Source: Bacteroidales bacterium
Lineage (GTDB): Bacteria > Bacteroidota > Bacteroidia > Bacteroidales > UBA3824
NCBI GenBank assembly: GCA_017535325.1
Contig: JAFXUC010000029.1
Coordinates: 78,878 to 142,877, forward strand
Length of the DNA: 64,000 bases
Reading direction: 5' to 3'
Each line of letters starts with the position of its first letter. Within the stretch, counting starts at the first letter, position 1. The notes under the pieces were generated by a model. That model ran no database searches and was not told the origin of the DNA. It saw only the letters and a list, made by a program, of their open reading frames with translations. The position numbers were made by a program, and so were the translations under genes. Below are positions 52,172 through 54,706 of the stretch, piece after piece.

Positions 52172-52230
52172 ACAAAAATCCCTTGCGGACGGTAATACAA
52201 TGCTGTCCGCAAGGGATTTTTGTTTTTAGT
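52172..52230 (+). terminator. Perfect 19-bp terminator or attenuator hairpin
   Basis: ACAAAAATCCCTTGCGGAC (52172-52190) and its exact complement (52205-52223) enclose a 14-base loop, followed by a T-rich run. It lies 33 bases before the next gene with no promoter in between, so the downstream genes depend on read-through or anti-termination. From 51994 to 52255 there is otherwise only the promoter and the micro-ORF. Confidence 0.82.
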
Positions 52231-52255: not shown

Positions 52256-52417
52256 ATGAAAGAACAGATTCAAAAAGTCGTTAGTACACCGACGAGAAAA
52301 AAGTACGTTAAGCCCGATTTTGAGGTAATCGACCTCGAAGACACGCCGAAACTTTTGGCGGCAAGCGGACCGAACACAGGTGCAACCTTAGGTGCTTCAA
52401 ATTATCAATCTTGGTAA
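52256..52417 (+). CDS. Small peptide of 53 residues, KP-x-x-EV/LLAASG type, unknown function
   Basis: The product starts MKEQIQKVV and has a charged N-terminal part with KKYVKPDFEVIDLEDTPKLL, then AASGPNTGATLGASNYQSW. It has no signal peptide. Short Bacteroidales proteins with a YxKP-x-x-EV motif followed by a Leu-rich step and a Gly/Ser/Ala-rich tail are familiar, but have no proven function. The leader-core look resembles a peptide precursor. No maturation enzyme or exporter gene is adjacent. It is 18 bases upstream of the lipoprotein gene and surely co-transcribed with it. Confidence 0.7.
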   Translation: MKEQIQKVVSTPTRKKYVKPDFEVIDLEDTPKLLAASGPNTGATLGASNYQSW

Positions 52418-52435: not shown

Positions 52436-53629
52436 ATGAAAAGAACTTTTTTAAGAATTCTGCCTTTGGCAGTAGCCGTTTTGCTTGCAACCTCTTGCAG
52501 CAAAGACGAGAACAATGACAATGCAGTTGTAAACAACGGACAAGAAACCGTTCAGACTAAAACCTTGCCGATTTCAATTACGGTAAATCAAAAAGGTCTT
52601 TCAAAACTCAGTTGTACCGGCGATATGGAAGAGGATCTTCAACCGATTTTTGAGCCCGGTGATGAACTCAAAATTTATTATAAGGACGGCGGTTTGTTGA
52701 AGACGTTAGTGGTTGCAGAAGAAAATATCACTAATGACGGCAAAACTGCGGTCTTTGAAGGCGAAATCGTTGGTGGCGGACTTGTAGACGATGTGACAGA
52801 GTTAACCGCAAAAATAGGTACTCCGATTACAGCGGCAGTAACCGCAACTTCCCGTGAAGATGCTGTAAAAAAAGGCTGTTATCAGACAGCGGATTTTATA
52901 TATTCTGCTGAGGGAAACCATATTTCTTTGGAAGAACAAAACGCTTATATTGAAGTTGTTTGGAAAAACAAAGGCGGAGAAACTGTTAATTTTTCGATAG
53001 ACGGCAACCCTGTTACTTTGAATTTGAACGGCAGCGGACAAGGTTGGATAGTTGTTCCCGACGAAGTATCGCTTACATGTGAAGACCTTGGCATTACGGA
53101 GGCAAAAACGGCAGAAAAGGCTAATATTTACGGAATAATCCGTAAGTTTGTTCCCGACGGTTACGTTGACCTCGGCGTTGTATTGGACGATGGAACAGAA
53201 GTTTATTTTTCGAGCACTGTTACTTCTACGGGTGTTAAGTGGAGTGACAAAACTGATGAAGAACGAGCAGATTGGCCTACTGTTGATGAATTTGCAAACC
53301 TTGTATCTGATTGTTATTGGCGGTGGGACAATACACAAGGTCATAAAGGTTATTATGTTTTCAAAATTCATGCCGATGCGGATAAAGGTAAGATTACTAA
53401 TTCGAGCATTAATTATTCACCAAGTACTGCATATAGTATAGAGAACGACTCGTACATTTTTCTTCCGGTTTCAGATGGCAACTACGGCTATTACTGGTCG
53501 AGAGAGTCCGACGACGTTGACCTCGCGTTTTGTTTGTACTTCCTCGAGAACGACGTGTCCCCGGACAACTACCTCTATTCGAAGGACCGCGGTAAGCCGG
53601 GGGTTGTTACGGTTCGGCACAGCAATTAA
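52436..53629 (+). CDS. Lipoprotein with a C-terminal C-type-lectin-like (FISUMP/DUF1566-type) domain and a candidate DGR variable region
   Basis: The 397-residue product has a lipobox (LATSC, Cys 21), an N-terminal beta-rich region (about 40-230, fimbrillin-like in style) and a C-terminal domain beginning GYVDLGVVLDDGTEVYFS. This C-terminal part matches the FISUMP/DUF1566 lectin-like fold that usually ends in GFSVRPV; here the end is VVTVRHSN. From about residue 349 the text (YYWSRESDDVDLAFCLYF, then PDNYLYSKDRG) has the spacing of retroelement-diversified proteins, and the DNA there becomes markedly richer in G and C. It probably binds a ligand at the cell surface. Confidence 0.75.
   Translation: MKRTFLRILPLAVAVLLATSCSKDENNDNAVVNNGQETVQTKTLPISITVNQKGLSKLSCTGDMEEDLQPIFEPGDELKIYYKDGGLLKTLVVAEENITNDGKTAVFEGEIVGGGLVDDVTELTAKIGTPITAAVTATSREDAVKKGCYQTADFIYSAEGNHISLEEQNAYIEVVWKNKGGETVNFSIDGNPVTLNLNGSGQGWIVVPDEVSLTCEDLGITEAKTAEKANIYGIIRKFVPDGYVDLGVVLDDGTEVYFSSTVTSTGVKWSDKTDEERADWPTVDEFANLVSDCYWRWDNTQGHKGYYVFKIHADADKGKITNSSINYSPSTAYSIENDSYIFLPVSDGNYGYYWSRESDDVDLAFCLYFLENDVSPDNYLYSKDRGKPGVVTVRHSN
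53491..53625 (+). other. Candidate variable region (VR) of a diversity-generating retroelement target
   Basis: The last 45 or so codons of the lipoprotein switch to C- and G-ending codons (TCC, GAC, CTC, GCG, TTC, CCG, CGC), unlike the A/T-ending codons just upstream. They encode the exposed end of a lectin-like fold with WSRESDDVDLAFCLYF. Both features are typical of VRs copied from a GC-rich template repeat with AAC/TAC codons. No template repeat and no reverse transcriptase are present in this window. Confidence 0.55.
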
Positions 53630-53650: not shown

Positions 53651-53695
53651 AAAAAAACGATTGTCGAAATGCTTTTTTCGGTAGTCGTTTTTTTT
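53651..53695 (+). terminator. Terminator after the candidate DGR target
   Basis: AAAACGATTGTCGAAA and TTTTCGGTAGTCGTTTT pair imperfectly with G-U pairs around a short loop, followed by a T run. The T run merges with the -33 region of the next promoter. A hairpin just after a VR is also a known feature of DGR targets. Confidence 0.7.
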
Positions 53696-53758: not shown

Positions 53759-54706
53759 ATGGAATCAGAATTTCTCATACGTTTTGACTATGCCATTAAG
53801 CACATGCTTAGGGATAAGGCTAACTTCGGCATTTTGGAGGGCTTCATCGAAGTCTTTCTGAAAAAGAAATGCAAAATTATGGAAATTCTTGAAAGCGAAA
53901 GTAATCAGGACAACGCTGACGATAAATACAACCGTGTTGACATTAAGGCGGTAGATGAACAGGGCGAAATTTTCATTGTTGAGGTTCAGACCACACGTTA
54001 TACATATTATTTGGAACGTATACTTTACGGTGTTTCCAAAGCCGTAACGGAACAAATAGGTTCTGGCAGAGATTACGACAAAATTAAACAGGTTTTCTCT
54101 ATATCTATTGTTTATTATGATTTGGGTGTCGGCGACGATTATTTTTATGAGTGCAAATCTGATTTTATAGGTGTACACACGCACAATCCTTTGCAACTGA
54201 GCCGCAGGGAAGAACTTACCGTTGAGCAGATAAAGCAAATTAAAGACGAAACGGGTAAAGACCAAATGTACACTTATAAAAAGATAACATCGGGCGATGT
54301 TTTTCCGAGGTATTATCTTATAAGAATAAATGCTTTCCGCAAAGTCGTTGCCGATGCTATGGACGAGTGGATTAATTTTCTTAAAAACAACAGCATCAAA
54401 CCCGATACTACTGCTCCCGGTTTGGCTGAGGCGCGTAAAAAGTTGGTTTATGCCCGTATGTCCAAGGAAGAACAACTCCGTTATGACCGCCGCCTTGAAT
54501 CTCTTGTCAACGAAAAAGAGGCAATGTTTGAGTCGGAAATACGCGGCGAGGAAAGAGGTCTGAAAAAAGGCGAAAAACTCGGCATTGAAAAAGGTGAAAA
54601 ACAAAGAGCCGTAGAAACTGCCCGTATGATGAAAGCCGACAACGAACCTCTTGAAAAAATCATACGGTATTCAGGCTTAACAAAAGACGAAATTTTAGCC
54701 TTATAA
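53759..54706 (+). CDS. Rpn family PD-(D/E)XK nuclease/putative transposase
   Basis: The 315-residue product belongs to the Rpn/PDDEXK family of recombination-promoting nucleases, often annotated as transposases. The start has FDYAIKHMLRDKANFGILEG; the nuclease core has D61 region YNRVDIKAVDEQGEIFIVEV followed by QTTR. The C-terminal quarter is charged and helical (GEERGLKKGEKLGIEKGEK), ending in a small helical motif (IRYSGLTKDEILAL). Family members cut DNA and may move within genomes, but no inverted repeats or target duplications flank this gene. Many copies per genome are common in Bacteroidales. Confidence 0.88.
   Translation: MESEFLIRFDYAIKHMLRDKANFGILEGFIEVFLKKKCKIMEILESESNQDNADDKYNRVDIKAVDEQGEIFIVEVQTTRYTYYLERILYGVSKAVTEQIGSGRDYDKIKQVFSISIVYYDLGVGDDYFYECKSDFIGVHTHNPLQLSRREELTVEQIKQIKDETGKDQMYTYKKITSGDVFPRYYLIRINAFRKVVADAMDEWINFLKNNSIKPDTTAPGLAEARKKLVYARMSKEEQLRYDRRLESLVNEKEAMFESEIRGEERGLKKGEKLGIEKGEKQRAVETARMMKADNEPLEKIIRYSGLTKDEILAL

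Follow-up and report, generated by a model that had tools for sequence, protein, structure and literature searches.

The window, by which we mean the whole stretch of 64,000 nucleotides that was analysed (contig JAFXUC010000029.1 of the Bacteroidales assembly GCA_017535325.1), contains a gene for a 397-residue protein that begins with an apparent lipoprotein signal (MKRTFLRILPLAVAVLLATSC; ...LLATSC). We refer to it as the target gene. The features of the locus are as follows:

52256..52417, + strand: small ORF of 53 aa, traced at the fetched family loci by tblastn
52436..53629, + strand: target lipoprotein gene, an ORF of 397 aa
53477..53620, + strand: putative variable region (VR), delimited by a breakpoint in third-position GC at 53477 and by codons that differ from the orthologue at locus L033
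53624..53637, + strand: 14-nt motif, AATTAACCATGCTT, overlapping the stop codon at the 3' edge of the VR
53651..53694, + strand: terminator-like hairpin with 19-nt arms, not conserved among VR genes
53759..54706, + strand: gene of the Rpn/PD-(D/E)XK family, neighbour of the target gene

An earlier reading of the window, made from the sequence only, had claimed that codons ending in A or T give way abruptly to codons ending in C or G at the end of this lipoprotein gene, and counting bears this out. GC at third codon positions (GC3) rises from 0.34 to 0.78 at 53477, with 35 of the last 45 codons ending in G or C, compared with 121 of the 352 before them (Fisher p=2.8e-8). The target gene ranks first among 36 non-overlapping ORFs in the window on two counts, the GC3 of its richest 45-codon stretch (0.80) and the shift in GC3 at its end (0.43; the next ORF reaches 0.17). 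The maximum-likelihood breakpoint falls at codon 348 (53477), 14 nt upstream of the position at which the sequence-only reading had begun its region (53491-53625); the shift that it described is there, and its start has to be moved.

In a diversity-generating retroelement (DGR), an adenine-rich template RNA is copied into cDNA with its adenines misread, and the cDNA then takes the place of the gene's 3' end. Misreading of such a template would turn asparagine-type codons (AAC and alike) into the NNC codons of the tail, and DGR action would thereby leave a C/G-ending tail whose changes fall on the first two codon positions of an otherwise conserved backbone.

By scanning the whole collection we found a copy of the target gene in a Bacteroidales metagenome-assembled genome from red deer (L033, judged to be contig C11 of genome G016). 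Over codons 1-347 the two copies are identical at 985 of 1041 sites (~95%). From codon 348 onwards, 20 of the 48 compared codons differ, all of them non-synonymously, and 15 of the changed codons are multi-hit. The variable codons are numbers 349, 350, 359, 360, 362, 363, 368, 370, 372, 373, 377-385 and 395. Changed codons are strongly enriched in the VR (20/48, against 40/347 in the body; p=1.5e-6), and the differences within it are distributed 14/18/7 over codon positions 1/2/3; the tests for multi-hit codons and for sparing of third positions give p=0.002 and p=0.02, respectively. The first variable codon lies at 53480-53482 and the last at 53618-53620, and between the replaced codons the VR backbone is unchanged, for example at GGCTATTACTGGTCGAGAGAGTCC, GCGTTTTGTTTG and GGGGTTGTTACGGTTCGGC. 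We thus observe hypervariability at codon positions 1 and 2 on a conserved backbone, with some upstream patches varying too. Comparison with homologues had been proposed as a check on the sequence-only reading, and the tail differences that it yields, all non-synonymous and mostly at the first two codon positions, follow the pattern expected of a DGR variable region. The two tails also differ by a one-codon indel, and 7 of the 39 VR differences are at third positions, so that the two alleles did not arise from one identical template repeat (TR) by mutagenesis of adenines alone; they can probably be traced to slightly different templates.

Of the codons changed upstream of the VR, 31 of 40 are changed non-synonymously and in a patchy manner, which indicates that further diversifying or recombination processes act on the target gene. 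Two patches, at about 52705-52750 and 53290-53345, have dense, mostly non-synonymous differences to L033, as if recombined with paralogues. The surroundings of the two copies differ as well: the window has pnp upstream of the gene, and L033 has ribosomal protein genes and fusA downstream. The gene body is ~95% identical, with long tracts of full identity, whereas for fusA the identity between G016 and the genome of the window (G000, hereafter the own genome) is only 81%; given this and the different neighbourhoods, the gene has moved between species and the tails have diverged afterwards. The simplest reading is a recent interspecies transfer of the gene, followed by rewriting of its tail.

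A protein search of the own genome returned at least 15 loci of this family. The genome has at least six sister genes of the target, on contigs C52, C123, C5, C115, C31 and C104; their C-termini resemble that of the target, with the form YWS...(variable)...VRxVR and NNC codons, and the GC3-shifted tail recurs in all five whose composition was measured. Their backbones are of more than one type: C52 and C123 share one, C5 and C115 share another, and the window tail is separate from the C5/C115 type. Contig ends are often close to the family loci, 8 of 15 being no more than 1.5 kb from one (p=8e-5); this placement is expected where repeats break an assembly, and a cassette of TR and reverse transcriptase (RT) could therefore have dropped out there.

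DGR-type RTs are present in 4 of 17 congeners (G001:C92, G006:C32, G014:C151 and G015:C134). In three of these, G001, G014 and G015, and in two phage contigs, TR and VR form clean pairs that differ at 16-22 adenines and at 0-1 other sites, from which we conclude that the search method works here. The fourth, G006:C32, has a canonical DGR whose parts stand in a row: the terminal part of a VR gene, then an accessory ORF, the TR (...NAYYLNFNSGNANVNNNNRNYGQS...) and an RT with the GLPIGNLTSQ signature. Its TR differs from the C115 VR of the own genome (L019) at 21 of 43 A sites and 10 of 144 others (p=3.7e-9), from the C5 VR (L017) at 20/43 and 19/144 (p=1e-5) and from a VR of G003 at 21/43 and 16/144 (p=4.5e-7). 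As this TR belongs to a different species, leftover differences at sites other than A are expected as drift, and the adenine bias of the match identifies the sister tails C115 and C5 as DGR VRs.

Several further observations concern these congeneric loci. The accessory protein of G006:C32 (L071:223-774) belongs to the same family (...EWSAWL...) as a phage copy at L105:2939-3619, with 26% identity, and has no match in Pfam, NCBIfam or PHROGs. Loci L072, L073 and L074 (G014, G001 and G015) contain complete DGRs with the TR after the RT, and by eye their VRs lie in large proteins with ends like those of formylglycine-generating enzymes. The first 200 bases of L080 (G005:C43, minus strand), which follow a VR gene, resemble by eye the start of a group II intron.

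Taking the orthologues, the paralogues and the congener's TR that matches sister VRs together, we regard the assignment of the tail to a DGR as well supported. The stretch from codon 348 to codon 395 in this gene for an outer-surface lipoprotein is thus very probably a DGR variable region, as the sequence-only reading had suspected. Counting against it are the third-position differences, the indel and the upstream replacements described above, and the outcome of the TR and RT searches given below.

The 3' edge of the VR carries a shared motif, written here as AATTAACCATGYTT and also given as AATTAACCATGTTT. The own genome has six copies of it, each at the 3' end of a VR, and across 18 genomes there are 16, of which 14 are at VR genes; the remaining two represent a single unrelated position that is orthologous between G005 and G009. 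On C31 the motif DNA is read in another frame, so it is conserved as DNA. TR/VR likeness ends just before the 14 nt of the motif, and the DNA downstream varies widely among VR genes. We propose the motif as a candidate cis-acting homing boundary that may be IMH-like. The hairpin at 53651-53694 had been likened to the hairpins that follow known DGR targets. It is present, with its 19-nt arms, but it is terminator-like and differs among VR genes. A DGR cruciform is not supported, as different VR genes are followed by several unrelated hairpins, and this one is probably an ordinary terminator and not a DGR signal.

The genes on either side of the target gene have counterparts elsewhere. The small ORF at 52256-52417 precedes most lipoprotein genes of the family in several genomes of the genus, with the pattern KKYVKPDFEVI(D/N/E)L...LLAASG; its C52 copy has an in-frame stop, and a search of Pfam and NCBIfam gave no match to it. 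Upstream of it, at 52174-52221, is a long GC-rich terminator-like hairpin of 20 pairs. Rpn/PD-(D/E)XK genes repeatedly follow VR genes or a DGR RT (window 53759-54706, L033:11258-12130, L071:2393-3313 and L122:381-1427), among them orthologues of the target gene and the RT of the G006 DGR. The gene is probably a neighbour that stands outside the mechanism.

The window protein has no significant match in Pfam, NCBIfam or PHROGs. Its full-length model is of moderate confidence (pLDDT 74), and Foldseek matches the N-terminal part to Bacteroides cell adhesion/fimbrial proteins at E ~1e-5 with low TM scores (0.24-0.29); in the model, therefore, this part resembles Bacteroides fimbrillin/pilin domains. 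The C-terminal domain (residues 243-397) is modelled confidently (pLDDT 84) and found no match in the PDB or among viral structures. Among the 15 family members, eight match Lcl_C (formerly DUF1566) weakly, the window protein itself not being one of them, and two match Fib_succ_major weakly. A relationship of the C-terminal domain to the Lcl_C group is hinted at by the former matches, and a C-type-lectin fold for the VR domain is plausible from both. The lectin-like fold that had been claimed for this end of the protein is thus hinted at by the weak matches of its relatives and was not recovered by the structure search.

The sequence-only reading had also claimed that the gene is an orphan, with no RT or template repeat in the 64 kb; none was found near the gene within the window, and the orphan status of the locus holds. 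That reading had further proposed a search of the whole genome for a DGR RT and a matching TR, and neither turned up in the assembly. With a completeness of 98.4% in 140 contigs, the assembly does not prove that the genome lacks a DGR RT. An RVT_1 search of the own genome returned one RT, on another contig (G000:C86, L002:4067-5305, minus strand), which is a member of the UG26 (DRT-type) group, matching RT_UG26 at E=1.7e-149 and carrying RGAMAGIPVSAFF where DGR RTs have GLPIGNLTSQ. With the G006 RT as query, a low-stringency search of the own genome gave two matches, this UG26 RT at E=0.01 and one at chance level (E=0.17), and the G006 accessory protein had no match among the fetched own-genome loci. 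As TR queries we used the VR itself, a reconstructed TR of two types and TR-like patterns, which returned just VR genes or nothing: there is no TR-like copy in the own genome and no window-type TR in the 18 genomes of the genus or in the phage, plasmid and viral collections. G016 contains no RT of any kind. UG26-type RTs are related to defence RTs, and their motif GAMAG(V/I/A)P(V/I)SAF was seen in ~10 of 18 congeneric genomes.

Could the tail have arisen without a DGR acting on it? The C86 enzyme, being the sole RT in the assembly, might be put forward as the mutagenic RT for the lipoprotein targets, but we give this next to no credence: its RT_UG26 match (E=1.7e-149) comes without the DGR signature, no TR is seen by eye beside its gene, and its occurrence does not track that of the VR motif, which is present in G016 without an RT and missing from G002, G004, G011 and G012, which have UG26-like RTs. 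On family and motif it was rejected for that role. Positive selection of the ordinary kind on an exposed loop, combined with a local anomaly of codon usage or a foreign last domain, would draw on the facts that third-position GC alone could mark foreign DNA and that upstream parts of the gene also have an excess of non-synonymous change. We hold it to be very improbable, since the shift begins inside the domain rather than at its border and at the same place in sister genes, the variation is multi-hit and largely spares the third base, and sister tails match the congener's TR with differences biased to adenines. Conversion between paralogous genes of the lipoprotein family, shuffling tails with no RT acting on the target gene, fits the at least 15 paralogous loci and the patchy upstream replacements, which suggest recombination among family members; it is nevertheless improbable as the source of the tail. 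No donor tails with the observed combinations were found in the genome, the differences sit at codon positions 1 and 2 on an identical backbone and not in blocks, and even if conversion had moved the tail, the donor tails themselves carry the DGR signature.

If the tail is a DGR variable region, it remains to be weighed where its retroelement is. At the locus of the target gene the cassette of accessory gene, TR and RT is absent, and we infer that a DGR elsewhere in the cell, either not captured by the assembly or carried on an unbinned element, would have diversified the tail in trans, now or until recently; within the DGR explanation we put continued or recent service in trans at about an even chance. 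A serious competitor, to which we give somewhat less than an even chance, is that the gene is a relic: a former target in cis whose accessory-TR-RT cassette was deleted, with diversification over and the tail drifting slowly. Stubs of RT 3' ends do stand behind VR genes in G006. On C85, a window-type gene at a contig end is followed ~110 nt on by 18 codons of an RT 3' end (L118:10631-10684), and on C81 a VR gene is followed by ~88 codons of one, out of context (L117:7020-7283); RT cassettes therefore once stood at these places and have since been lost by deletion. Behind the window gene, the threshold used revealed no stub of this kind. Deletion also agrees with the lack of a DGR RT or TR in the G000 and G016 assemblies and with isolates of Treponema denticola that have targets without RT and TR (PMC4891356). 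What speaks for continued activity is that the VR differs strongly from that of L033 on bodies 95% identical across species, so that at least one lineage was still diversifying the tail once the transfer had taken place, and that the reading frame, the lipoprotein signal and the 3' motif are all intact. The orphan part of the earlier claim is thus supported, and present action of a retroelement in trans is a possibility: with no cognate TR or DGR RT in the assembly and with the decayed RT stubs in G006, a leftover target is about equally possible. We also entertain, as a more speculative and rather doubtful extension, that these lipoprotein genes are mobile DGR targets that spread without a retroelement, their 3' tag AATTAACCATGYTT being read in trans by any compatible host DGR.

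Hypermutable surface lipoproteins are documented here in an uncultured Bacteroidales genus, with one relative from a red deer metagenome, and such targets cross species with the body nearly unchanged and the tail rewritten. Surveys centred on the RT miss orphan targets of this kind, and one such survey states that its own method misses remote targets (PMC8144416). A compositional break in the raw sequence sufficed to find one, and the shared 3' motif is a simple handle both for finding others and for testing what marks genes for retrohoming.

Comparable systems have been described. In Treponema denticola, TvpA is accompanied by remote target lipoproteins, and remnant targets persist in isolates without the core DGR (PMC4891356). 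As here, genes for surface lipoproteins with the VR at the C-terminal end are dispersed, away from the RT/TR core; the phylum is another, however, and there a TR and RT that directly match the targets are known in sister isolates (PMC4891356), whereas the TR of the window gene was not found. Thiohalocapsa PB-PSB1, with degenerate and remote DGR loci, likewise has several VR loci in its genome, some without RT or TR and diversified in trans or in a subpopulation, although its targets are putative sensors of conflict systems with TR matches found (PMC10907252), and ours are Bacteroidales lipoproteins. In human microbiomes, DUF1566 (now Lcl_C) is the commonest DGR target domain, with the VR at the gene end (PMC4159848). 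The weak Lcl_C matches of our family members recall these DUF1566/Fib_succ_major targets, which differ in having RT and TR nearby (PMC4159848), neither of which is near the window gene. A parallel within the genus is offered by G006:C32, whose order of VR, accessory gene, TR and RT is that of the phage DGRs L103 and L105 (IMG/VR), with RTs 46% identical, and whose TR backbone resembles VRs of the own genome, although it is of the C5/C115 type and not of the window type. DGR target lipoproteins that are remote from an RT or lack one are thus already known, and the window gene adds one more case, of which the parts worth following are the movement of the target across species and its 3' tag.
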